This document shows positions 4,572 through 50,516 of a stretch of DNA of 64,000 nucleotides, in pieces. The notes beneath the pieces are model-generated. The model saw only the letters and a list, made by a program, of their open reading frames with translations. It had not been told where the DNA came from and ran no database searches. The DNA comes from Pseudomonadales bacterium (lineage in GTDB: Bacteria; Pseudomonadota; Gammaproteobacteria; Pseudomonadales; Azotimanducaceae). Position numbers and translations under genes: made by a program. Positions within the stretch are counted from its first letter, which is position 1. Every line of letters begins with the position of its first letter. The stretch covers positions 372,001-436,000 of the forward strand of contig WLWP01000002.1 of assembly GCA_012103505.1 (NCBI GenBank), in the 5' to 3' direction.

Positions 4572-6017
4572 ATGAGCGATATCGCATTCCGATCTGCTAC
4601 GGAACTTGCAGCTATGATCGCCAAGAAAGAAATTTCTGCACGCGAACTGCTCGACCACTACCTCGATCGCGTCGATCGATATAACGAGGCATTGAACGCT
4701 ATCGTTGTGGACGTTCGAGACGAAGCTCGCGTAGCGGCTGACAAAATGGATGCCAGTCCCGGTGATGCTACTTTTCACGGTGTGCCTATGACCGTGAAGG
4801 AGTCATACGACATTCCTGGCGCGCCAACCACTTGGGGCAATCCAGCATGGCGTGACAACATTGCCACGGAAGATGCCGAATCAATCAAGAAGTTACGCGC
4901 TGCAGGCGTCAACGTTTTCGGTAAAACCAACGTCCCGATCTCTTTAGCAGATTTCCAAAGCTACAACGAAGTCTACGGCACGACGAACAATCCCTATGAC
5001 CACAGTCGTATCCCCGGCGGCTCATCAGGGGGCTCCGCTGCCGCACTGGCTGCTGGTCTCACCGGACTTGAAATTGGCTCCGACATTGGCGGCTCGATTA
5101 GGAACCCGGCACACTTTTGTGGTGTTTTTGGACACAAACCAACCTACAACCTACTCTGGATGCGCGGGCACACCCCACCAGGGGACATTCGCTCAAGCTC
5201 TGACATTTCGGTCATCGGACCGCTCGCGAGGTCAGCGGAAGATCTCGATCGCGCACTTCGGATCATGGCCGGTCCCGACGATATCACCGCTCGGGGTATG
5301 AAGCTGGATCTACCTGAATGGCAAGGCCGGTCTCTGAAAGGACTAAAGGTTGCTGTCTGGAAAAACGATGAACATGCCCCAGTTGCCCGGGAAGTGGAGG
5401 CACGAGTGGATCTTGTCGCTCAAGCTCTAAAAGACGCCGGTGCCATCGTCAATGAAGATGCGCGACCTAGCTTCACCGCCGAGCACAGCAACGAGACTTA
5501 CAACAACCTTTTGCACGCAACGATGGCGATGCGCATGCCCGAAGAAGACTACGAAGGCCTGAAGGCAATTGTCGACAACCTCGACCCTAATGACCAGAGC
5601 GACAACGCTAAAGTCAGGCGCGCACAGGTATCGAGTTTTAAGTCTTGGGGAGCGAACAACGAGCAGCGCCATCACCTTCGCTGGAGTTGGCACCAATTCT
5701 TCAACGACTACGACATCCTGCTTACGCCGATGATGGCAACCCCGGCTTTTGAACATGATCATCGAAAATTTGGTGAACGGACAATTCTAGTTGATAACCA
5801 AGAACGTCCATACTTCGAGCAGGTGTTCTGGGCAGGTCTAACAGGCGTTGCCTATTTACCCTCTACTGTCATCCCAACTGGACTAAACCCAGATGGTTTA
5901 CCCATTGGCGTGCAAATCGTCTCTGCCGAGTACAACGATCTTGTGACGATAGGTATCGCCGCGGAGCTTGAGCGAGAAGGCTTTTCCTTCACCCCGCCAC
6001 CAAACTATGTCGACTAG
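4572..6017 (+). CDS. Amidase (amidase-signature family)
   Basis: 481 residues of the amidase-signature hydrolase family. The Ser-cisSer-Lys triad is visible: Lys76 (TVKES), cis-Ser151 (GGSSGGS) and nucleophile Ser175 (SDIGGSIR), with the usual 24-residue spacing between the serines. RBS GAGGAG stands 7 bases before the ATG. Two bases separate its stop from mvaD, so it probably heads the mevalonate operon. GatA is unlikely because no gatB or gatC neighbours are present. The amide substrate is unknown. Confidence 0.9.
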   Translation: MSDIAFRSATELAAMIAKKEISARELLDHYLDRVDRYNEALNAIVVDVRDEARVAADKMDASPGDATFHGVPMTVKESYDIPGAPTTWGNPAWRDNIATEDAESIKKLRAAGVNVFGKTNVPISLADFQSYNEVYGTTNNPYDHSRIPGGSSGGSAAALAAGLTGLEIGSDIGGSIRNPAHFCGVFGHKPTYNLLWMRGHTPPGDIRSSSDISVIGPLARSAEDLDRALRIMAGPDDITARGMKLDLPEWQGRSLKGLKVAVWKNDEHAPVAREVEARVDLVAQALKDAGAIVNEDARPSFTAEHSNETYNNLLHATMAMRMPEEDYEGLKAIVDNLDPNDQSDNAKVRRAQVSSFKSWGANNEQRHHLRWSWHQFFNDYDILLTPMMATPAFEHDHRKFGERTILVDNQERPYFEQVFWAGLTGVAYLPSTVIPTGLNPDGLPIGVQIVSAEYNDLVTIGIAAELEREGFSFTPPPNYVD

Positions 6018-6019
6018 CT

Positions 6020-6955
6020 GTGACTAAGGCGCTCGCGCATCCAAATATCGCTCTGATTAAGTATTGGGGTAAGCAAGACAAGCTCGGTAATTTCCCAGCA
6101 ACACCGAGCTTGAGCATCACGTTAGATGGATTGGTAACGGAAACTGTCTTAACAGATGGGAGCACTGATCGCTTTGTCATTAATGGCAAAGAACAAGATG
6201 ACCCAAAGGTCGCTGGTTTCTTAGGTGCTCTACGCGCGAGCCTCTCAGTGCCGCCTCTAGAAATCGAGACAGTAAACAACTTTCCAACGGGTGCAGGTTT
6301 AGCATCTTCGGCGTCAGGCTTTGCAGCCCTGATGACAGCAATCAACGCACATTGTCAGTTCGGACTGAGCACTGAAATGATGAGCGACTGGGCACGACAA
6401 GGTTCCGCAAGTGCAGCTCGTTCGATGTACGGCGGGTTTGTTAGTCTCGTACCACCTTTGTGGCGCGCATACCCTGCAGCAAACGTTGATCATTGGCCGC
6501 TGAATGTTGTCATCGCCATTACGAGTGAAGAAAAAAAGGACGTAGGTAGCACCGAGGGTATGCGCCGCACGGCAGCGACCTCGCCCTTCTACCCCGCGTG
6601 GGTTAAAGACGCACCGGAAGATTATGCAACTGCATCTGAAGCAATCGCTCAACGAGATTTTGCTGCCCTCGCCGGAGTCGCTGAACTTAGCTGCCTGAAA
6701 ATGCACAGCATTATGCTGACAAGCGTTCCAACGTTGAGTTACTGGAATCCAACTACGCTCTCTTGCATGGACGGCGTCCGCGACATGCGGCGTAACGGCA
6801 TCGCAGCATTTTTCACCATTGATGCTGGTCCGCAGGTCAAAGTTGTATGCCTGCCCGACTCTGTCGAACAGGTGCAAGCCACCTTACGCGACATCCCTGG
6901 TGTGCTCACAACTAAGGTTTGTGCCCTGGGTGGGAATGCGCGGATACTCGATTGA
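6020..6955 (+). CDS. mvaD: Diphosphomevalonate decarboxylase
   Basis: 311 residues. This GHMP-superfamily enzyme makes isopentenyl diphosphate from mevalonate diphosphate with ATP. The family hallmark HPNIALIKYWGK is at residues 7-18, the ATP loop FPTGAGLASSASGFAAL near 87-103, and the catalytic-Asp region TIDAGPQVKV near 265-275. Start is GTG two bases after the amidase stop. Its TGA stop overlaps the TTG start of the next kinase, so the pathway genes are translationally coupled. I am sure of the family and the function. Confidence 0.93.
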   Translation: MTKALAHPNIALIKYWGKQDKLGNFPATPSLSITLDGLVTETVLTDGSTDRFVINGKEQDDPKVAGFLGALRASLSVPPLEIETVNNFPTGAGLASSASGFAALMTAINAHCQFGLSTEMMSDWARQGSASAARSMYGGFVSLVPPLWRAYPAANVDHWPLNVVIAITSEEKKDVGSTEGMRRTAATSPFYPAWVKDAPEDYATASEAIAQRDFAALAGVAELSCLKMHSIMLTSVPTLSYWNPTTLSCMDGVRDMRRNGIAAFFTIDAGPQVKVVCLPDSVEQVQATLRDIPGVLTTKVCALGGNARILD

Positions 6956-7899
6956 TCATCACTGCACCCGGCAAGGTTGTTGTTTGGGGTGAGTATGCCG
7001 TTCTGACTGGCGCGCCCGCTGCAGTCATGGCCATCGATCGTTACGCTTATTGCGAGTTGTCGACGAGCGCAAATTTCTCTTCGTTCACAGCACACGGTTT
7101 TCTTACCCCTGGTCTGCATAGTCCCGATCGAGCTGTACCAACTACTCCGGTAACGAGTCTCTTTGCGGCCATCTTGAAGGAAATGGGACACACAAAGTTA
7201 CCTTCTCACCTCGATTGTGCCATGGACACATCGGCATTCTACTCATCTGGCACAAAGATGGGGCTTGGTTCGTCTGCGGCTCTTAGCTGTGCCATCTACG
7301 CCGGGCTATGCGGAATCCTAGAACACGAACCCAACTGGCAAGAGGCGCTTCGCGCACATCGTGCCTGGCAAGGGGGAGGTGGTAGCGGCCTGGATGTTGC
7401 TGCGAGTTGGCACGGCGGTGTCATTCGTTATCAACAAGAATCTGTTGCCCAAACACTATGGCCAGAAAACTGGCACTGTTCGATTGTATTTACCGGTAGC
7501 TCTGCCAGCACACCCACACAAGTGGCAAAGTTCTCAGCGTGGGGCGATAGCGAAAAAAGTAGTCGATTAGATGCGCTTGCACAAGCGTCCGAGAATTTGT
7601 TTCAGCAGAATCCTGATCTAGACGACTTGCGACACTATACGAGTCGTTTGCGTGAGCTAGACCGCGCAGGAGACCTAAACATTTTTACACAAGAACACGA
7701 AAGGTTAGCTACAATTGCGGGTGACCTGGATATGGTCTACAAGCCTTGTGGCGCAGGAGGCGGTGACATTGGAATTGCCATAACCGAAAACCCGCAATTG
7801 TTGCAAAAATTTTGCACACAAGCCGCACTGGCAGGATTCACAGCCCTGGATACGGAGATTGCCGCGCATGGCATCCAAACAAGAGAAAACGCCGACTAA
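6952..7899 (+). CDS. mvaK2: Phosphomevalonate kinase-like GHMP kinase
   Basis: 315 residues from a TTG start that overlaps the mvaD stop by four bases; starting here places the GHMP motif ITAPGKVVVWGEYAVL directly at the N-terminus. Motif 2 is GLGSSAAL (about 105), a catalytic-Asp-type segment is GSGLDVAAS (about 144-152), and motif 3 is PCGAGGGDIGIA (about 266-277). Mevalonate kinase is fused to the reductase downstream and mvaD is upstream, so the missing pathway step is phosphomevalonate phosphorylation. Function is inferred from this context and the SG-DVA motif typical of ERG8-like kinases. It could instead be a diverged second mevalonate kinase. Confidence 0.8.
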   Translation: MIITAPGKVVVWGEYAVLTGAPAAVMAIDRYAYCELSTSANFSSFTAHGFLTPGLHSPDRAVPTTPVTSLFAAILKEMGHTKLPSHLDCAMDTSAFYSSGTKMGLGSSAALSCAIYAGLCGILEHEPNWQEALRAHRAWQGGGGSGLDVAASWHGGVIRYQQESVAQTLWPENWHCSIVFTGSSASTPTQVAKFSAWGDSEKSSRLDALAQASENLFQQNPDLDDLRHYTSRLRELDRAGDLNIFTQEHERLATIAGDLDMVYKPCGAGGGDIGIAITENPQLLQKFCTQAALAGFTALDTEIAAHGIQTRENAD

Positions 7900-10129
7900 C
7901 AGTTCGCGGATTTCGAATTTCTTCAAGATGAGCATCGCGGAGCGGATCGCGGCCCTTAATGCTAACGGTTTGCTATCCCAGGACGACGTTCAGCAGCTCG
8001 TTACATCTAATCACCAACTCAACATCAACGCAGCCGACAAAATGATTGAGAACGTTGTTGGTGTGTTTGGGCTGCCTATGGGCGTCGCACTAAACTTTTT
8101 GATCAACAACAAAGATTATGCGATACCACTTGTTGTTGAAGAACCATCCATTGTTGCCGGACTATCGGGTGCTGCACGGATGGCTAGGCTCGGTGGCGGT
8201 TACACCGCAGCTTCTTCGGATCCAATTCTCATCGGTCAAGTTCAGTCAGTGATTACGACTGATCCAGCACAGGCCATGCAAACCCTTCTCGATAACAAGT
8301 CTGAGATCCTGTCATTGGCCAACAGCATGCACCCCAAAATGATTGCCCGTGGTGGTGGCGCACTGGACATCGAGGTCTATCACCACGTTGCAGAGCAAGA
8401 CGGCCGAGATATGGTTGTCCTGCATCTCTTAGTGGATACAAGAGATGCAATGGGCGCAAATCTCGTTAACTCTATGTGCGAAGGCGTCGCTGCGCTTGTT
8501 GAACAGCTTACCGGCGGCACCGTCTTTTTACGGATTTTGTCTAACCTCACCGACCGAGCAATCGCGAAAGCCTCAGTCCAGATCCCTACAGCCAATCTAG
8601 AAGGCAAGGGATTCAGTGGTGAAGCGGTCCGTGATGGCATTATTCTCGCCAACGATCTCGCGCTCGCTGACCCATACCGCGCCGCCACTCACAACAAAGG
8701 CATCATGAACGGTGTCGACGCTGTCGCTCTCGCGACTGGCAACGACTGGCGCGCAATCGAAGCCGCTGCTCACGCGTACGCAGCCAGAGATGGTCGCTAT
8801 AAGGCACTCACCCGATGGTACAAAAGTAAAGAGGGTGATCTCGTCGGCGAAATCGAAATTCCAATGAAAGTTGGTACCGTAGGTGGTTCGTTGGAGTCCA
8901 ATCCTAGCGTTCGCATCAACCATCGCCTGCTAGGCTCACCTAGCGCCACAGAACTTGCTTCAGTCATGGGCGCTATCGGTCTTGCCCAGAACTTCGCTGC
9001 CCTGCGCGCTCTATCGACAAACGGTATTCAACAGAATCACATGAACCTCCACGCTCGAAGTGTTGCAAGCACAGCGGGGGTACCGGATGAATATTTCGAA
9101 ACCGTGGTCGAAAGTCTAATCGAGTCAGGAGAAGTCAAGGTCTGGAAGGCGCAGGAAATCGTTAAGAATCTCTCGCGCAAAGCAACCCGACCGGAAGCGT
9201 CCGAACGCCAATCAGCAAGCGGCAAAATAATTTTGTTGGGCGAGCACGCTGTCGTTTATGGCCGACCAGCAATCGCGCTGCCTATTCCACTCGCCGTGGA
9301 AGCGACAGTACGTAAATACCCTTCCGATGAGGGCCAAGGTGTAGACATCCTAATACCTCGTTGGGGCTTGGAACAGAAAGTCCATGCTGGTATGCAAGGC
9401 CTCCCCGGCATTCTGGGGAGTATTCTCGATCGTCTAAATTTACTTGACGAGCACATGACCATAGAGGTTTTTCCGCATGTGCCACGAGCGATGGGTTTAG
9501 GCGGGTCTTCAGCTCTGGCCGTCGCCATACTGCGTGCGGTTGATCATGCCTTTACCTTGAATCTCGGTAACGAAACCATCAATGAACTCGCCTTCGAATG
9601 TGAGAAAGCTGCGCACGGCACACCATCTGGCGTGGACAATACAGTCGCAACTTATGGAACGCCTCTGATCTATCGCAGAGTCGATGACGAGCCCAAATTC
9701 GAAAGCTTAAAACTAGGCACCCCCCTTGATCTTATCGTTGGGATCACCGGCAAAGAGAGTCTTACTGCTGACGCTGTGGCCAGAGTCCGTAAAACGTGGC
9801 AACAATATCCAGAACGTTATGAAGCTGTTTTTGATCAAGTTGCAGACGTTACAGATGCAGGTCGCGAAGCCTTGGTCGCAGGTAACCTGGACGAGATCGG
9901 CGAGCTCATGAATCTCTGTCACGGCTATCTCAATGCTCTGCAGCTATCAACTCCAGAGCTTGAAGAGCTAATACACATTGCCCGAACAAACGGAGCCGTC
10001 GGCGCCAAGCTAACTGGTGGCGGTGTCGGTGGATCCATGATCGCGCTTTGTCCTGACAATAAACATGGGATCGAACAAGCCATGCAAGCCGCGGGTTTCC
10101 AAACCCTAGAAGTCACTATCACGAACTAG
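7868..10129 (+). CDS. mvaA/mvaK1: Fused class II HMG-CoA reductase-mevalonate kinase
   Basis: One 753-residue frame carries two enzymes. Residues about 22-440 are class II HMG-CoA reductase: EEPS (91-94, catalytic Glu), dinucleotide motif DAMGAN (193-198), Lys277 in HNKGIMNG, Asp293 in GNDW and His391 in NHMNLHA. A short linker (about 440-450) leads to mevalonate kinase: SGKIILLGEHAVVYG (451-465), GLGGSSAL (543-550), GTPSGVDN with Asp590, and KLTGGGVGG (715-723). All catalytic residues seem present in both halves, so mevalonate would be made and phosphorylated by one chain. The ATG at 7868 lies inside the 3' end of the previous kinase gene; ATG 7928 is an alternative that loses only a non-conserved tail. 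Class II reductases usually prefer NADH. Confidence 0.92.
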   Translation: MASKQEKTPTNSSRISNFFKMSIAERIAALNANGLLSQDDVQQLVTSNHQLNINAADKMIENVVGVFGLPMGVALNFLINNKDYAIPLVVEEPSIVAGLSGAARMARLGGGYTAASSDPILIGQVQSVITTDPAQAMQTLLDNKSEILSLANSMHPKMIARGGGALDIEVYHHVAEQDGRDMVVLHLLVDTRDAMGANLVNSMCEGVAALVEQLTGGTVFLRILSNLTDRAIAKASVQIPTANLEGKGFSGEAVRDGIILANDLALADPYRAATHNKGIMNGVDAVALATGNDWRAIEAAAHAYAARDGRYKALTRWYKSKEGDLVGEIEIPMKVGTVGGSLESNPSVRINHRLLGSPSATELASVMGAIGLAQNFAALRALSTNGIQQNHMNLHARSVASTAGVPDEYFETVVESLIESGEVKVWKAQEIVKNLSRKATRPEASERQSASGKIILLGEHAVVYGRPAIALPIPLAVEATVRKYPSDEGQGVDILIPRWGLEQKVHAGMQGLPGILGSILDRLNLLDEHMTIEVFPHVPRAMGLGGSSALAVAILRAVDHAFTLNLGNETINELAFECEKAAHGTPSGVDNTVATYGTPLIYRRVDDEPKFESLKLGTPLDLIVGITGKESLTADAVARVRKTWQQYPERYEAVFDQVADVTDAGREALVAGNLDEIGELMNLCHGYLNALQLSTPELEELIHIARTNGAVGAKLTGGGVGGSMIALCPDNKHGIEQAMQAAGFQTLEVTITN

Positions 10130-12137: not shown

Positions 12138-13454
12138 CTACGCCGGGATCCAAGCGCCATGGAAACCGGCGGGAATCCGCCGACCCAGATCTACAACTGC
12201 AAGTGGCGCGTCGGCAATCCTGTGGGCATCTAGAATCCGCACTTCACTCGTATCGGTAGCCGCCCTGTAGACACAAACTAATACCCAACCGGCATCTTCT
12301 GCCGAGTCAGCGCGGCTTGTCGCTGGCACAAATACCGGCTCGCTATTCGAATCACCCGGATCGATGTCGTGGCATTCAGCATGACCCGTCTTCAGATCGT
12401 ATTTCAATACTCCGCGCATCTCCGTATTGCTCGGTTGCGCTACGGAGTAGTGATATTCGTATGGACGCCCGGTTCGAGATTCGTTTATGCGCGGTAACTC
12501 TACGCGGCGGTCATCCAGCTGGGTCTCGGTTGCCGTACCAGCCTCGATGTCGATCACATAACGCCAGGGCACGCCTAAGGGGTTTGCTTTGAATTCAGTC
12601 GTGGCCATATCAAATTTTAGATACCAGGGATAGCGGACAACGTCGAAGACAATCTTGCTGCCAGCGATGTCGTAGGCATTGATCACGTGCTGAATAAAGC
12701 ACGGTTCAATCTCTACCCAAATAACCTCTCCACTGCCTCGCGGTACGAGACAAAGGCGTGAGGGACGACCCTCCTGCCAACAAATCGGCATGCGTACACC
12801 CTTCTGAAGAAGAGAAAAGTCATACCCCACACTCAGATCCATCAAGATGCTGTGACTAGCGGTGATCGCCATGTCGTGCATCATTCCGGGACCCGCAACC
12901 TCAATCTCCAACTCGCGTTGCGATTGGCCTTGCGCATCAACCTCGCCATAAAGCAGCCAAGGCTGGTTCCAATCAGCGCGAAACCAAAATAGTTCGCCGG
13001 TCACGGGGTCAACTTTTGGATGCGCGGTCATGGCGCCAAGTGCTCGAGCGCCTTCAGTGCCTAAGTCGCTGTTAACCGCTAGAGGAACGCCGCCCTCGGC
13101 CATTGCGTACGTAGTACCACCGTGACGCAGGATGTTCACGTTTGGGTTCGTTTCAACAAACTCAGAGATATCTTCGATGTTTTGGTACCGAGCCCACGCA
13201 TGCGATCTCACCCACCGGTTTCGATACGCTTGCGCTTCGCCATCGGCGAACTGAACGCTGTGTAGCATCGCAGCCTCTGGCCACCACGAGAGCACATCGC
13301 TACCTTCGGAGCGCCCGCTATACGGGTTCGGTCCATTGCGTAACAAAGCGCCGTTTAGCGCCTCGGGAATCTCTCCGGTGACCTTGAGCGCGGTCATTTC
13401 AATTTCATCTAGGACAGGGGCCAACGCGCCACTGTTCAAGTCAGGTACGCTCAT
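12138..13454 (-). CDS. Carotenoid cleavage oxygenase (RPE65/CCD family)
   Basis: 438 residues of the non-haem iron carotenoid/stilbene oxygenase family. The four iron-binding His are in their expected blocks: His145 (TAHPKVD), His193 (MMHDMA), His256 (IQHVINAYD) and His432 (GFHGAW) near the C-terminus. The N-terminal LLRNGPNPY motif is also typical. Its start overlaps the MarR regulator stop by four bases, so it is the second gene of a MarR-controlled operon. The substrate (carotenoid, apocarotenoid or lignostilbene-like) is not predictable. Confidence 0.9.
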   Translation of the reverse strand: MSVPDLNSGALAPVLDEIEMTALKVTGEIPEALNGALLRNGPNPYSGRSEGSDVLSWWPEAAMLHSVQFADGEAQAYRNRWVRSHAWARYQNIEDISEFVETNPNVNILRHGGTTYAMAEGGVPLAVNSDLGTEGARALGAMTAHPKVDPVTGELFWFRADWNQPWLLYGEVDAQGQSQRELEIEVAGPGMMHDMAITASHSILMDLSVGYDFSLLQKGVRMPICWQEGRPSRLCLVPRGSGEVIWVEIEPCFIQHVINAYDIAGSKIVFDVVRYPWYLKFDMATTEFKANPLGVPWRYVIDIEAGTATETQLDDRRVELPRINESRTGRPYEYHYSVAQPSNTEMRGVLKYDLKTGHAECHDIDPGDSNSEPVFVPATSRADSAEDAGWVLVCVYRAATDTSEVRILDAHRIADAPLAVVDLGRRIPAGFHGAWIPA

Positions 13455-19133: not shown

Positions 19134-19568
19134 CTATACCCGTTCCCACTGTAGCAGCGTAAACGGAGGCTCGGCGTCTTCATGATGCTCAAACACCCCA
19201 CGAACGCTCGCACCGATCTCCACATCAGCCTCGGCATCACCTAACAAGTTACCGACCATGCGAACGTTTCCTGCGTGGGGTAACTCAACCAACACGACCA
19301 CGTAGGCGCCCTGTTCGCTCAGCGCAGGATGGACTGGGTGCCAAACTCGTTCGTAGCTGTAGATCACTCCTTCTGGGGCGACCTCGACAAAAGTCACTTC
19401 ATCGCTATGACAGTGATGGCAGATCCATTCGGGACCCCACTGATAACCTTGGCACGACTGGCACTGCTGAACGCGCACAACGTTTTCGCGCAACCCCGAC
19501 CAAAAGGGCTCGTCCAATTCTGTCCCTACGGGCTGAGCAAGCCCTGGATTTAGATAGTATTCACTCAT
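19134..19568 (-). CDS. DUF35 OB-fold protein with rubredoxin-like zinc ribbon
   Basis: 144 residues: an N-terminal helix (DEPFWSGLRENVVRVQQC), a zinc ribbon with two CxxC pairs (CQSC and CHHC) and an OB fold (IYSYERVWHPVHP, GAYVVVLVELPH). DUF35 proteins act as CoA-binding partners of thiolase-like proteins. Here the gene overlaps the end of the thiolase-like gene by four bases, so the two products most likely form one complex. Confidence 0.88.
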   Translation of the reverse strand: MSEYYLNPGLAQPVGTELDEPFWSGLRENVVRVQQCQSCQGYQWGPEWICHHCHSDEVTFVEVAPEGVIYSYERVWHPVHPALSEQGAYVVVLVELPHAGNVRMVGNLLGDAEADVEIGASVRGVFEHHEDAEPPFTLLQWERV

Positions 19569-20740
19569 ACTGTTGCCTCACTACCAAAGATTGAACAACT
19601 CACCGGGGTCACCATCGGTCCCGATATCACCATCGAGACATCCGCTTTATCCACCTGGCTAGTCGACTCTCCACGCACCTGTCGGACCGCTTCAATGTTT
19701 AAACCCAATCCGTGCATATAACACTCAGCAAGATTGCCACCACTTGTGTTTAGCGGCAGATCACCATTTGTCAGAAAACGATCCTTGGTAAAAAACTCGT
19801 TACAAGCTTCAGGTTCGCAAAAACCGTGTTCCACAATGCTCATCAGCACGCCACCTGTGAAATTCTCATAACTCTGCAAGACATCGACGTCCTTCGCGGA
19901 CAACTGCGCCATTTCATAGAGACGGGGCGCGAGGCTTTTGAAAGTCGACGTGGCATAGTCGGGTGTATTATGGACGCTGGCCCCCGCTCGATAGTGCGAG
20001 CCACCCACAGCCCCAAGTATGTAACAAGGCTTCCCTGGGAAATCCTTGGCTTTCTCAGCAGACACCAACACCATTGCGGCTGCGCCATCATTCTCCAAGC
20101 AACAGTCATATAGGTGAAATGGCTCGACGATCCAACGCGATTCATCATATTTCTGCTCATCGAGCGGCCGTCCGTGCATGACTGCTCGAGGATTGGCTTG
20201 AGCATGCTCATAACAAGCCAGCGAGATCGCCCGTAAGGCACTTTGCTCAACGCCATTGTCATGCATGAAGCGCACGACCTTCATGGCAAACATTTGTGCC
20301 GGTGACATGAGTCCATATGGAATCGTGTAGGCGAAATCACCGCGAATCGAGTTAGTGCGTGGTCCCTGACCAAACCGCCCGAACTGTCCTTGCGCGAGCG
20401 CTCGGAACACAACCACCGTATCCGCTACACCCGCATAGATCGCTGCCGCTGCATTGGATATGGCAGCTGAGCCGCCACCACCGCCACCACCCCATTGCAT
20501 ATTCGAAAAACGAAGTTCTTTGCAGCCGAGTGCAGCGGCAAGTTTTGATGGATCACTACGGTCATTGCTATAAGACGCAAAACCGTCGACATCCTTTGGA
20601 TCGACTCCAGCATTTTCACAGGCTCGCAAGATCGCACTGAGTGCCAACTTGAACTCTGCATCCGGCGCTTGGCCGCGTTTGTAGTATTCGGTCTCGCCGA
20701 CGCCGACAACGGCGACCTGACCTCGCATGGTATTTGACAT
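19565..20740 (-). CDS. Thiolase-like lipid-transfer protein/putative acyl-CoA aldolase (Ltp2-like)
   Basis: 391 residues from ATG 20740, preceded by the strong RBS AAGGGAGGCAAAT. The thiolase fold is clear, but the catalytic Cys loop is replaced by a run of seven Gly (84-90), so claisen-type thiolysis is unlikely. Tyr291 (QSYENF) and Tyr341 (GGNLAECYMHG) match the two Tyr blocks known to be catalytic in the Ltp2 steroid side-chain aldolase, which also works with a DUF35 partner. Retro-aldol cleavage of a beta-hydroxyacyl-CoA is therefore a reasonable inference. A MaoC hydratase is divergently transcribed. Confidence 0.85.
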   Translation of the reverse strand: MSNTMRGQVAVVGVGETEYYKRGQAPDAEFKLALSAILRACENAGVDPKDVDGFASYSNDRSDPSKLAAALGCKELRFSNMQWGGGGGGGSAAISNAAAAIYAGVADTVVVFRALAQGQFGRFGQGPRTNSIRGDFAYTIPYGLMSPAQMFAMKVVRFMHDNGVEQSALRAISLACYEHAQANPRAVMHGRPLDEQKYDESRWIVEPFHLYDCCLENDGAAAMVLVSAEKAKDFPGKPCYILGAVGGSHYRAGASVHNTPDYATSTFKSLAPRLYEMAQLSAKDVDVLQSYENFTGGVLMSIVEHGFCEPEACNEFFTKDRFLTNGDLPLNTSGGNLAECYMHGLGLNIEAVRQVRGESTSQVDKADVSMVISGPMVTPVSCSIFGSEATV

Positions 20741-20799
20741 ATTTGCCTCCCTTGGCCACATTACACGCGATTGAACAATAGCTAATCAAGGGGAAAAAG

Positions 20800-21636
20800 A
20801 TGCCAATTGATCCTAATGCCGTAGGTGTAAAAGGCGAACCGAGGAAGAGAAGTTGGACCAGCAAGGATGCATTGCTATATGCGGTGGGCGTTGGCGCCGG
20901 AACAGATGAGTTGCCCTATACGACCGAAAACACTAAAGAGACCGTACAGAAAGTACTACCTACCTTCGCCGTGATCATCGGTGGCGGTGGCTCTCCCATG
21001 GATAAAGTCGGTTCTTTTAACCCAGCCATGATGGTTCACGGCGAGCAAGGTATCGAACTTCTGGATGAAATCCCGGCCGATGGCGAACTCGAAAGCGTTG
21101 GTGAGTGCACCGCTATTTGGGACAAAGGCAGTGCTGCTGTCCTCGAATTTGAATCTACCAGCACCAACACCGCGACCGGTAAACCGTTACTCAAAACACG
21201 CACGATGCTTTTTTGCCGCGGCGAAGGTGGCTGGGGCGGCGAACGAGGACCGACTGACAAAATTGAATTCCCTGACTGGGCTGCGGACCACGAAGTCGTC
21301 TATGCAACCCGTGAGGACCAAGCCCTAACATATCGTCTAAGCGGAGACAGGAACCCACTACACTCTGACCCGTCATTTGCTGCGATGGGAGGTTTTGATA
21401 AACCGATTTTACACGGACTTTGCACCTGGGGTTTCACTGGGCGCGCCTTACTCCATACCCTTTGCGGATCGGATTCTTCACGTTTCAAGGCGATGAATAG
21501 CCGATTCTCTAAGCCTGTGATTCCAGGTGACACATTGACAATCAAGATGTGGGTTGACGGCAATGAAGCGCTATTCAAAACGGAAAACCAAAATGGTGAG
21601 ACCGTGATCGACCAAGGCGTTTTTAAGTTCAGTTAA
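20800..21636 (+). CDS. MaoC-like (R)-enoyl-CoA hydratase, double hot-dog
   Basis: 278 residues with two hot-dog domains. The C-terminal one carries the hydratase 2 motif YRLSGDRNPLHSDP with Asp183 and His188 as the catalytic pair, followed by GGFDKPILHGLC. The N-terminal half (YAVGVGAGTDELPYT, LPTFAVIIG) resembles the substrate-binding non-catalytic half of MFE-2/PhaJ-like enzymes. The product, a 3-hydroxyacyl-CoA, could feed the thiolase/aldolase system encoded opposite. RBS AAGGGGAAAAAG precedes the ATG. Confidence 0.88.
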   Translation: MPIDPNAVGVKGEPRKRSWTSKDALLYAVGVGAGTDELPYTTENTKETVQKVLPTFAVIIGGGGSPMDKVGSFNPAMMVHGEQGIELLDEIPADGELESVGECTAIWDKGSAAVLEFESTSTNTATGKPLLKTRTMLFCRGEGGWGGERGPTDKIEFPDWAADHEVVYATREDQALTYRLSGDRNPLHSDPSFAAMGGFDKPILHGLCTWGFTGRALLHTLCGSDSSRFKAMNSRFSKPVIPGDTLTIKMWVDGNEALFKTENQNGETVIDQGVFKFS

Positions 21637-41027: not shown

Positions 41028-42512
41028 ATGCGTCTAACAGATCAAGCAGCAGCCAGTCTTTTTTTGGAGAAGACCGGGGTCGCCATGCAGGTCAGTGCTC
41101 TTTCTATCCTGGCAACCAATCCCGACCTCGATGCCATTCTCAAACACGTCGGTTCACGCTTAAGTAGCCTACCCCACTACCGCAAACGTCTCGCATTCGT
41201 ACCATTCAATCTTGCCCACCCGGTTTGGGTCGATCATGAAGAGTTCGATATTGCAGAACATATAACTAAGGTCGAACTACCGGGCGATACCTCAGTTGAT
41301 GATCTGATCTCCCACGCAGTGGATATCGGCACCAAGCCCCTAGATCGAACCAAGCCGTTGTGGGCGATGCACTTGGTTAGCGCTAAAGATCGCGATCAAA
41401 CTATCCTTGTACATGTTGTCCACCTCGCCGCCTTAGACAACGTTACGCTCGGGGAGGACGCACATGTGTTCTTCGACTTGCTCAGAGAACCGCGTGTCGC
41501 GCCACCAGAAGACTGGACGCCTGAAGCTGCACCTTCCGAGATGGACCTTGCCAGCGAAGCGGTCAAAGACAACACCGCAGCTTTTGCAGAACAGTCCCGT
41601 CGCCTCGGAAGTTTTTCCGAACATGGCAGTGAAATGATTCGCCGTGCAACTGAGTCAGTGACGCGATTCTTAACCGAACCGATCTGTATTGCCCCTTGGA
41701 ACCAAGGTCTTGTCGGCCAGGCTAGGGAGTTCCGTCGCATCTCGGTCCCATATCTCAACGTCCGAAAATTGCGTCGCAAGCTTGGCGGCACCGATAACGA
41801 CATTGTACTTACTGTGTTGGTTGAAGCAGCTGCGCGTTATCTCGCTAACAAATCTGTAAACGCAGCCGGTCGACATCTGCGTGTTTTCTGCCCAGTCAAA
41901 GTGCGTCGCGAAGATACTTCCGGCATACGAGGTAGTCGAATGTCCGGGGTATTCCCCGTTGCCGATGCTGAGCCCAGGGCAGTACTTGATCGCTTGACCG
42001 AAATTCGCTGGGAAAATGAGTCGATCAAGCAAAACCGAGAAGCGCAAGCACTACAATTGCTGAGCGAACTTGCACCACCTCTCCCGACGATCCCAGGCGT
42101 AGACGACGCAACCGCCAGCCGTTTCTTTGGACAGACCCCACTTAACTGGTTGACATTCAATCCGATCAATTTCTTCCAACAATTTATGCCAGGCAATCTC
42201 GCAACCTCCATCTCGAGCAGTCTACCGCCAGCGTTTTCGCAAATGATGGCAGGGTTTAACTTCAGTGCCGTCACTGCAAACGGTGCCCAAACCTCATTGT
42301 TTTTCGCCGGACATGAAGTGAAAGAACAGCTCTTTGTACCAGCACTTGCAGGCAATCTAGGATTCGCAGTAGCTATTAGCACCTACGCCCAAACCCTGAC
42401 ATTCAACCTCGTCGCCGATCGCGTATTGATGCCAGACATCGACATGATGCAAAGCTCTGTAGAAGCCGTTACACAAGAGCTCATGCAAGCAGCCGAATTA
42501 TCAGACAACTAG
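41028..42512 (+). CDS. WS/DGAT-family protein with degenerate active site
   Basis: 494 residues of the wax ester synthase/diacylglycerol acyltransferase family. The N-terminal FVPFNLAHPVWVDHEEFD and RTKPLWAMHLV blocks align well with the second WS/DGAT in this window. The HHxxxDG catalytic motif is HLAALDN (132-138): the second His, held to be the general base, is Leu and Gly is Asn. The C-terminal domain (RRISVPYLNVRKLRRKLGGTDNDIVLTVLVEAAARYL, LGFAVAIST) is retained. Wax/TAG synthesis is therefore doubtful; it may bind acyl chains or partner the active paralogue. Confidence 0.82.
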   Translation: MRLTDQAAASLFLEKTGVAMQVSALSILATNPDLDAILKHVGSRLSSLPHYRKRLAFVPFNLAHPVWVDHEEFDIAEHITKVELPGDTSVDDLISHAVDIGTKPLDRTKPLWAMHLVSAKDRDQTILVHVVHLAALDNVTLGEDAHVFFDLLREPRVAPPEDWTPEAAPSEMDLASEAVKDNTAAFAEQSRRLGSFSEHGSEMIRRATESVTRFLTEPICIAPWNQGLVGQAREFRRISVPYLNVRKLRRKLGGTDNDIVLTVLVEAAARYLANKSVNAAGRHLRVFCPVKVRREDTSGIRGSRMSGVFPVADAEPRAVLDRLTEIRWENESIKQNREAQALQLLSELAPPLPTIPGVDDATASRFFGQTPLNWLTFNPINFFQQFMPGNLATSISSSLPPAFSQMMAGFNFSAVTANGAQTSLFFAGHEVKEQLFVPALAGNLGFAVAISTYAQTLTFNLVADRVLMPDIDMMQSSVEAVTQELMQAAELSDN

Positions 42513-49079: not shown

Positions 49080-50516
49080 TTACTGCGCATCTTCAGCATG
49101 CGTCCTTAGTTCATCAAGCGCTTGGCTTGCCAAATCGCGAAACATCTCAACATCTGACATCAGACGAGGATCCGCGGTGAATACAAAGTTCAGTCGCCCA
49201 TTGTAACTACCGACACTCGCCCCGAACCCCAAGTTACCACCGAGCATAAGGGTGCCAAAGGAATTTTCAACGCGACAACCTGCTATGTACTGCTTCCAAT
49301 TCGGACCAGGCACATTGGTACAAGTAAAATTGAACCCCAATTGCTGTGGCCGAGACCCCTCAAGGCCCGGTACAACTGGCAATGGTGCGCGCGCAGCGGC
49401 AACCGTTGGATCCCACTGTGTGCCAACACTCAGAGTCTGTGCCATGGCAATCGGGGGTACGTTTGGCTGCAGCTGCTGCATTTGATCTAGAATCGATGCC
49501 TCATCCCTATTCTTTATATCGCCAAGTTCAGTCCTGACAAGCTCATATCGCTCGTCGATCGGCATCGGTTCAGCTTTTACCAACGGAAACATCGCTGAAA
49601 CCCTATTGCCACCCATCGCTAACGGATCGTCATCTTCACCCCTAACATTCACGGGGCACATAAGACGTAAATACTGATCGTCGACCTCTTCCTTCTTCTT
49701 AGCTAAGTATCGGGCTGCGGCTTCGGCGACAATCGTTACCGCGATGTCGTTTAACGTCCCACCTAGCGCCGTGCGTACCGGTTTGAATTTGGATAACTTG
49801 AGATCGAACCGCGCCATCGATCTCTTCGGCCCGACCAAGCTCGCATTCCATGGAGCCTGTAAAACAGGCTTAGACATGCGTTGGAGCAATGACGCGCCTT
49901 TACTACCCAAGGAGACTAACGATTGCGCCCCTTCGGCCAATTGTTGGACCTGGCCAAAACCCGATTGAGCATTTTCCGTTGCTGCTTCCTGCCAGAGTTC
50001 AAAGGAAGAGGGTGCCGACTCTGGTCGCCACTTTTCGGGGGCTTCTGGTGCCTCAGTGTCCGGTTCTGGGTCAGTCAGTACAGTTGACATCGCAACCGCC
50101 GTCGCACCATCCATAAAGGCATGGTGTCCCATCTGCACAATCAGGGTTTTACCTTCGACATTCTCGATCACATAGTGCAACCAGAGTGGTCTTGCTCGGT
50201 CCAGTAGAGGCTCACCTAACTCCAGACCAATCTCGATCGCACGATCTAACTTTGTGTTTGCAGAGACTTCATGGCCACGAATGTGGTTCCCTAAATCAAA
50301 ATCCTGATCATCAATCCACCTAGGATGGGCAAGATTGAACGGTACAAACGCGAGCTTTTGGCGTAGTCGAGGCACCAAATGCAACCGGTCGGCATAGAAC
50401 TTCAGATACTGGTCACGACTTACCGACCCATCGAGAATGGAGAACACGACGCTATGCATCGGTCCACTCGCTGTTTCACCATATAGAAAGGATGCATCGT
50501 GCGCGGATAGTCGCAT
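49080..50516 (-). CDS. Wax ester synthase/diacylglycerol acyltransferase
   Basis: 478 residues of the WS/DGAT family with an intact catalytic motif HHAFMDG (His131, His132, Asp136, Gly137). The N-terminal FVPFNLAHPRWIDDQDFD and the C-terminal NVPGPNWKQYIAGCRVENSFGTLMLGGNLGFGASVGSYNG are family blocks. It should make wax esters or triacylglycerol from acyl-CoA. It lies upstream of phaE/phaC in the same operon, linking two storage lipids. Confidence 0.92.
   Translation of the reverse strand: MRLSAHDASFLYGETASGPMHSVVFSILDGSVSRDQYLKFYADRLHLVPRLRQKLAFVPFNLAHPRWIDDQDFDLGNHIRGHEVSANTKLDRAIEIGLELGEPLLDRARPLWLHYVIENVEGKTLIVQMGHHAFMDGATAVAMSTVLTDPEPDTEAPEAPEKWRPESAPSSFELWQEAATENAQSGFGQVQQLAEGAQSLVSLGSKGASLLQRMSKPVLQAPWNASLVGPKRSMARFDLKLSKFKPVRTALGGTLNDIAVTIVAEAAARYLAKKKEEVDDQYLRLMCPVNVRGEDDDPLAMGGNRVSAMFPLVKAEPMPIDERYELVRTELGDIKNRDEASILDQMQQLQPNVPPIAMAQTLSVGTQWDPTVAAARAPLPVVPGLEGSRPQQLGFNFTCTNVPGPNWKQYIAGCRVENSFGTLMLGGNLGFGASVGSYNGRLNFVFTADPRLMSDVEMFRDLASQALDELRTHAEDAQ

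Follow-up and report, generated by a model that had tools for sequence, protein, structure and literature searches.

Fused isoprenoid enzymes are known from bacteria. According to passages of one published account, the mvaE gene encodes both thiolase and reductase activities, and IspDF of the MEP pathway is likewise a bacterial fusion of two isoprenoid enzymes (PMC13001223). Here we describe a gene on a 64,000-nucleotide stretch of bacterial DNA (the whole of which we call the window) that joins a class II HMG-CoA reductase to a mevalonate kinase. Like MvaE, the acetoacetyl-CoA thiolase/HMG-CoA reductase of Enterococcus faecalis and its kin, it combines two pathway enzymes of which one is a bacterial reductase. 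In MvaE, however, the partner is a thiolase, whose step is separated from that of the reductase by HMG-CoA synthase, whereas here it is the next enzyme of the pathway, mevalonate kinase, which is C-terminal. IspDF differs in belonging to another pathway and in joining non-consecutive steps. A description of a reductase-mevalonate kinase fusion was not found in the literature searched, in agreement with the preliminary description of this DNA, which knew of no described example; with most subscription papers outside the scope of the search, this is weak evidence of absence. The words "fusion" and "fused" do not occur in PMC3857490, and the passages of PMC13001223 do not describe this fusion. 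The reductase-kinase architecture was not found in print, yet it is plentiful in public genomes, and for that reason the gene is not a singular find.

Domains, catalytic residues and linker

The fusion gene occupies positions 7868–10129 of the forward strand. Its frame runs from an ATG at 7868 to a TAG at 10127–10129 and comprises 753 codons without an internal stop, which is the uninterrupted frame of the preliminary description in coordinates, length and phase. A GGAG lies, by eye, about 10 bases 5' of the ATG, and an alternative TTG start at 7859 would give a protein of 756 instead of 753 amino acids. The reductase part (7904–9169, residues 13–434), which includes the C-terminal helical part with H391, is connected through a linker of low column identity and low pLDDT (9173–9211, residues 436–448) to a mevalonate kinase part with the GHMP fold (9212–10120, residues 449–751). 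Pfam assigns HMG-CoA_red to residues 23–396 (346 bits), GHMP_kinases_N to 524–596 and GHMP_kinases_C to 667–741. Moreover, each half is a full-length match to an NCBIfam model and exceeds its cut-off: the reductase half to TIGR00532 (397 bits, cut-off 260) and the kinase half to the mevalonate kinase model TIGR00549 (234 bits, cut-off 163). Another model for mevalonate kinase, NF003036, scores 194 bits, under its cut-off of 403, and the NADPH reductase model TIGR00533 scores 41 bits (cut-off 442). A thiolase domain was absent from the chain in both the Pfam and the NCBIfam scans.

The reductase part aligns nearly end to end with the solved structures 1qax, 9v7y, 6dio, 6p7k and 5wpj, the highest-scoring of which is the Pseudomonas mevalonii enzyme 1qax. 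The kinase part matches the solved mevalonate kinases 2hfs, 6mde and 4hac, of which 2hfs scores best. In the alignment with 1qax, counted manually, E92, K277, D293 and H391 of the fusion stand opposite E83, K267, D283 and H381; we take these to be the catalytic Glu, Lys, Asp and His of a class II reductase. All four, together with K453, S547, E579 and D590, presumably the catalytic Asp and Lys and the Ser and Glu of the metal/ATP site of a GHMP kinase, show no variation among the 79 distinct fused frames. The intact reductase residues (Glu91/92, Lys277, Asp293 and His391) and the intact mevalonate kinase with Asp590 that had been read from the letters alone are thereby borne out, with E92 as the aligned glutamate. 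The column of P. mevalonii D146 holds H in 78 of the 79 frames, and that of L148 holds K, N or R in 75; we assume D146 and L148 to be the determinants of NADH use in P. mevalonii. In this stretch the fusion resembles the reductase of Streptococcus pneumoniae, an enzyme that uses NADPH, more than that of P. mevalonii. Judged from its sequence, the fused reductase probably uses NADPH.

The gene very likely specifies one protein with two activities, which catalyse successive steps of the mevalonate pathway. The reductase half, presumably running in the biosynthetic direction, would convert HMG-CoA and two NAD(P)H to mevalonate, which the kinase half would phosphorylate with ATP to 5-phosphomevalonate. 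The fusion might in this way trap mevalonate, as the preliminary description proposed. Whole domains and invariant catalytic positions suggest that both halves are active.

The linker is the least conserved part of the chain. Over the 79 fused frames, mean column identity is 0.31 in the linker, compared to 0.74 in the reductase and 0.65 in the kinase, and positions 428 and 452 are separated by anything from 18 to 87 residues (median 25). A predicted model (mean pLDDT 81, pTM 0.52) shows ordered secondary structure on both sides of the low-confidence linker, with pLDDT below 50 at residues 438–444; a pTM of 0.52 leaves the arrangement of the domains unfixed. Because the linker is unconserved and variable in length, we infer that the join is a tether, which provides equal amounts and proximity, rather than a built channel. 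Such a linker, unconserved and of low confidence in the model, would also suit a mere precursor that is cleaved at this flexible site to release two enzymes acting apart. This is unlikely, since the linker columns are not conserved, as they would have to be at a shared cleavage site, and the join has been retained over several phyla. In solved reductases the C-terminal part, which bears the catalytic His, is mobile. The kinase of the fusion hangs on this part, which may be relevant to turnover.

Gene cluster and proposed replacement of the MEP pathway

Two further genes of the pathway precede the fusion on the forward strand. The first (6020–6955, GTG start) encodes diphosphomevalonate decarboxylase (MvaD; TIGR01240 247 bits, cut-off 171). 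The second (6952–7899) encodes a GHMP kinase that is probably phosphomevalonate kinase (TIGR01220 72 bits, under the cut-off of 166); by eye, it likely starts at a TTG that overlaps the preceding stop, and its 3' end overlaps the start of the fusion by 32 bases. The fact that these three successive frames overlap at their ends suggests coupled translation. Together, MvaD and the probable phosphomevalonate kinase would carry the product of the fusion on to isopentenyl diphosphate. An amidase gene lies directly upstream (4572–6017, forward strand; PF01425, NF004816), and we claim no role in the pathway for it.

The neighbours were clustered over 56 loci (the window plus 18 plus 37 fetched ones), two of which have split genes and one neither gene. 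The clustering used simple open frames and therefore has misses, the fused L065 and L070 having gone unrecognised, and cluster identities were taken from single members. The probable phosphomevalonate kinase (cluster c1) is found in 41 of the 56 loci, MvaD (c2) in 36 and the amidase (c4) in 13; MvaD, the probable phosphomevalonate kinase and the fusion adjoin one another in many of them. A type 1 isopentenyl-diphosphate isomerase belongs to a cluster found in 29 of 56 loci, mostly just downstream of the fusion. This cluster lies upstream in L033, L040 and L063 and on the opposite strand in L091, and is absent from the window's own stretch. In G232, hpnH and hpnN adjoin the fusion, and representatives of these hopanoid clusters (hpnH, hpnN or squalene-hopene cyclase) are also present in L034, L035, L041, L066 and L071. 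At these loci the pathway may therefore feed hopanoid synthesis.

We searched for Dxr, which marks the MEP pathway, in a chosen panel of 37 genomes: 15 from the window's family with the fusion, 14 from the family without a match, six with the fusion from outside the family and two with split genes. The 14 were picked from 20 that were listed by name out of 53 family genomes without a match. Dxr is present in 0/15 family genomes with the fusion and in 11/14 without a match (Fisher p 1e-5, relatedness ignored), and further in two of the six outside genomes and in neither of the two with split genes. We infer that, among the tested members of the window's family, the fusion takes the place of the MEP pathway. 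The replacement is not clean, because three family genomes (G789, G795 and G808) have neither a fusion match nor Dxr, two of them having a divergent HMG-CoA synthase, and two genomes from outside the family (G232 and G462) have both fusion and Dxr.

These data also bear on the direction of the reaction. The name of TIGR00532 contains the word "degradative", and among solved structures the P. mevalonii enzyme scores highest, so that the reductase half might run backwards, as a catabolic mevalonate oxidation like that of P. mevalonii; alternatively, one of the halves might be a dead regulatory domain. Both are highly improbable, given that the same cluster holds MvaD and a kinase that would make phosphomevalonate, that the catalytic positions of both halves are invariant and that Dxr is missing from every tested family genome with the fusion.

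Distribution and history of the fusion

Among the 37 genomes of the genus, the window's included, 27 have full-length single-frame matches and three have partial matches across the junction, so that a frame crosses the junction in 30. Three others have fragments that do not cross it, and the four without a match are listed as 70–82% complete. In G010, one of the 27, a stop lies at the very end of the matched range and the open frame covers residues 2–749. The family sample of 150 genomes, to which the window's own and at least ten more of its genus belong, was searched at a threshold of 1e-20. Matches were found in 97 (90 full-length single, three partial across the junction, two with both parts in one open frame and two fragments), and none in 53; a frame thus extends over the junction in 95/150. 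G880 and G891 have two fusion copies each. At the level of the order (n = 390), 16 full-length fusions were recovered, 15 of which are within the family, and two genomes have adjacent separate genes. Matches at 1e-40 in the class (28 of 369) comprise nine full-length fusions, one partial across the junction and 18 reductases only, and matches at 1e-60 in the phylum (15 of 398) two fusions and 13 reductases only. The genus, family, order, class and phylum draws share genomes.

A scan of genome contigs gave at least 585 confirmed stretches, the best 80 of which were kept. These 80 include 37 fused genes (one, L092, cut by a contig end), eight pairs of adjacent genes and 35 reductases that are alone in their stretch. 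The titles of the fused ones read Gammaproteobacteria, Woeseiaceae, Calditrichota, Acidobacteriota, Planctomycetota MAG, Nakamurella MAG and Cryobacterium, bearing in mind that MAG titles can err. The architecture recurs across families of the class and across phyla, and its supposed rarity has to be given up: many public genomes already hold it (30/37 of the genus, 95/150 of the family and others in further phyla), an outcome that the preliminary description had named as grounds for refutation. Between residues 435 and 450, where the preliminary description placed the critical junction, there is neither a stop nor a frameshift, and the join recurs across genomes. A stop lost through an assembly or sequencing error could join two neighbouring genes, and the window's assembly has an estimated contamination of 6.6% and relatives can hold both genes adjacent yet separate (in L034 the stop codon and the next start share an ATGA), but chance and such an artefact are excluded because the same join recurs in many assemblies, including the one-contig genomes G349, G417, G849, G851 and G887 and the Cryobacterium strains L087, L088 and L091.

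A plasmid-borne origin was rejected: tblastn of a plasmid collection returned 58 records, all with a query coverage below 80%, and the 15 of these that were listed match the reductase part. Also rejected was a triple fusion with phosphomevalonate kinase in a 995-aa frame of G112, where the coordinates place the kinase match in another frame.

The same two enzymes are encoded in the same order by adjacent separate genes in Bacillota (L095, L101, L107 and L119) and Myxococcota (L096, L102, L110 and L116). These are, however, two proteins that fall outside the fused group in both gene trees, and their kinases score 176–209 bits against a profile built from fusions, compared to 311–481 for the fused ones among the best 80 of at least 585 stretches, the contig-cut L092 aside. 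The split genes of family f16 (L034 and L035), whose reductases are 57–58% and kinases 40% identical to those of the window, are also separate proteins, yet the best trees place them within the fused group.

Before all trees were built, many rows of the same genus and duplicates were omitted; the thinned trees also lack ten further fused rows, L203, most solitary reductases and five kinases. L092, whose contig ends inside the kinase, was counted as separate in the 116-row reductase tree and as fused in the thinned reductase tree and in the AU and distance tests. L054 is a fusion cut at the other end and was labelled fused in the kinase trees. In the reductase tree (116 rows), 60 fused rows, the split L034 and L035 and the cut L092 form one group (SH-aLRT 100), and in the kinase tree (81 rows) 61 fused rows and L034/L035 do so with a support of 91. 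The thinned trees recover fused rows plus L034/L035 with supports of 100/100 (reductase) and 88/78 (kinase). Of 200 bootstrap trees for each half, 0% (reductase) and 4% (kinase) contain a clade of fused rows without L034/L035; such a clade is not rejected by AU tests (p 0.115 and 0.335). For 50 fused rows common to both trees, the distances in the reductase and kinase halves are strongly correlated (Mantel r 0.946; none of 999 permutations as high). L034/L035 and L029 are on long branches.

Because both gene trees group the fusions, a single fusion event followed by spread, in part by horizontal transfer, appears the likeliest history. The split genes L034/L035 would perhaps be a later fission; the alternative, an unfused sister group, is permitted by the AU tests. 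In both thinned trees a strongly supported group unites Cryobacterium, family f207 and a MAG titled Salinisphaera, which likely reflects transfer. The locus L061 of Candidatus Azotimanducaceae (Pseudomonadales) sits among the rows of the window's family in both trees, which probably places the window's genome in that group or close to it.

The source of HMG-CoA

The least expected observation concerns HMG-CoA synthase. A divergent form (frames of 490–572 aa, 118–142 bits to TIGR01835, cut-off 360) occurs in nine of the 23 genomes with fused or split genes, as well as in two genomes without a fusion match. From the other 14 of the 23, the window's included, a recognisable synthase is missing in searches with PF08540, the divergent synthase, TIGR00748 and TIGR01835, and the usual pathway is therefore incomplete in these genomes. 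In 12 of the 14, Dxr is absent as well. The window's own genome has no match to PF08540 or to the divergent synthase and scores 23 bits with TIGR00748 and 26 bits with TIGR01835. Since TIGR01835 also matches 11 of 14 controls, one of them over the cut-off, scores near 25 bits mean little.

An archaeal-type synthase was considered and rejected: TIGR00748 matches 17 of the 37 panel genomes, none over its cut-off, as well as 12 of 14 controls including E. coli. The strongest match in a synthase-free fusion genome (68 bits, G540) is a FabH-type ketoacyl-ACP synthase; G462 has a match of 44 bits.

It is conceivable, as a tentative proposal, that in lineages with the fusion and without synthase and Dxr the mevalonate pathway is fed by the catabolism of leucine or isovalerate. 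Isovaleryl-CoA dehydrogenase, methylcrotonyl-CoA carboxylase and a hydratase would yield HMG-CoA, which the fused reductase-kinase would draw to isoprenoids in competition with HMG-CoA lyase. In trypanosomes leucine is a known sterol precursor by this route, according to the part of the source consulted (PMC5993337). The alternative, a synthase that our models do not recognise, is equally probable or better. As to the proposed leucine route, a relative of the beta subunit of methylcrotonyl-CoA carboxylase (at least 58% identical) is present in 12 of 14 genomes without synthase vs 4 of 9 with it (p 0.066), a contrast that is only suggestive; it is absent from G417 and G811, and one of the 12, G274, is the source genome of the query. 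In the window's genome, the beta subunit is accompanied by the alpha subunit and a relative of isovaleryl-CoA dehydrogenase, and the same 19-kb stretch has no relative of the reference hydratase or lyase. In G232 the carboxylase set includes a lyase as well, together with a hydratase of weak similarity. Elsewhere, the window's genome encodes one HMG-CoA lyase that exceeds the model's cut-off (294 bits); as a marker of the leucine route the lyase was discarded as uninformative, since it matches 36 of 37 genomes and is over the cut-off in 22.

In summary, the gene represents a natural and phylogenetically broad fusion of two consecutive isoprenoid steps for which we found no description. It provides pathway engineers with ready-made variants and with a comparison of fused and separate enzymes in near relatives. 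Moreover, it suggests that a switch from the MEP to the mevalonate pathway took place within a single family, and it draws attention to genomes that seemingly have no route from acetyl-CoA to HMG-CoA. Were the proposed feeding from leucine true, these bacteria would have a mevalonate pathway without HMG-CoA synthase, in which the fusion would serve as the commitment device.

HMG-CoA synthase and a possible leucine route

The window's own genome encodes the reductase-kinase fusion (753 amino acids; window 7868-10129, plus strand), MvaD and a probable PMK, despite the fact that profile and similarity searches of this genome neither recognised an HMG-CoA synthase nor found the MEP-pathway marker Dxr. 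Of its noted loci (L176, L165 and L166), the first contains an isovaleryl-CoA dehydrogenase-methylcrotonyl-CoA carboxylase cluster (L176:8351-13214), whose neighbours include no recognised hydratase or lyase.

Among the fetched loci, a divergent HMG-CoA synthase of approximately 490-540 amino acids is found at L139:814-2298 and L034:13348-14958. It matches NCBIfam synthase models, with scores far under their cut-offs. Two genomes of the family (G795 and G808) have the divergent synthase, and both Dxr and a match to the fusion are absent from them.

Other genes of the window

The amidase encoded at window 4572-6017 recurs near MvaD in relatives, its cluster (c4) being represented in 13 of the 56 loci. 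A carotenoid-cleavage-dioxygenase-like protein (12138-13454, minus strand) matches NF052295 with 310 bits, under the cut-off of 675. Two proteins of the wax ester synthase/diacylglycerol acyltransferase type are encoded at 41028-42512 (plus strand) and 49080-50516 (minus strand). Finally, a thiolase-like lipid-transfer protein, a 144-amino acid neighbour without any NCBIfam match and a MaoC-type hydratase lie together at 19134-21636.

Copy number, long frames and split genes

In the family search, two genomes (G880 and G891) each contain two full-length copies of the fusion. Two reductase matches from the class search (G522:C112:4077-5375 and G438:C67:9473-10825) lie in open frames of 713 and 742 amino acids, respectively, which exceed the length of a lone reductase and may be either chance frames or another fusion.

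Two loci of family f16 carry separate, adjacent reductase and kinase genes (L034:9207-11455 and L035:8145-10396), which in L034 overlap as ATGA. In trees these split genes nest among the fusions, a candidate case of natural fission. Hopanoid-cluster genes, such as hpnH, hpnN or squalene-hopene cyclase, are found near the fusion or the split pair in L028, L034, L035, L041, L066 and L071.
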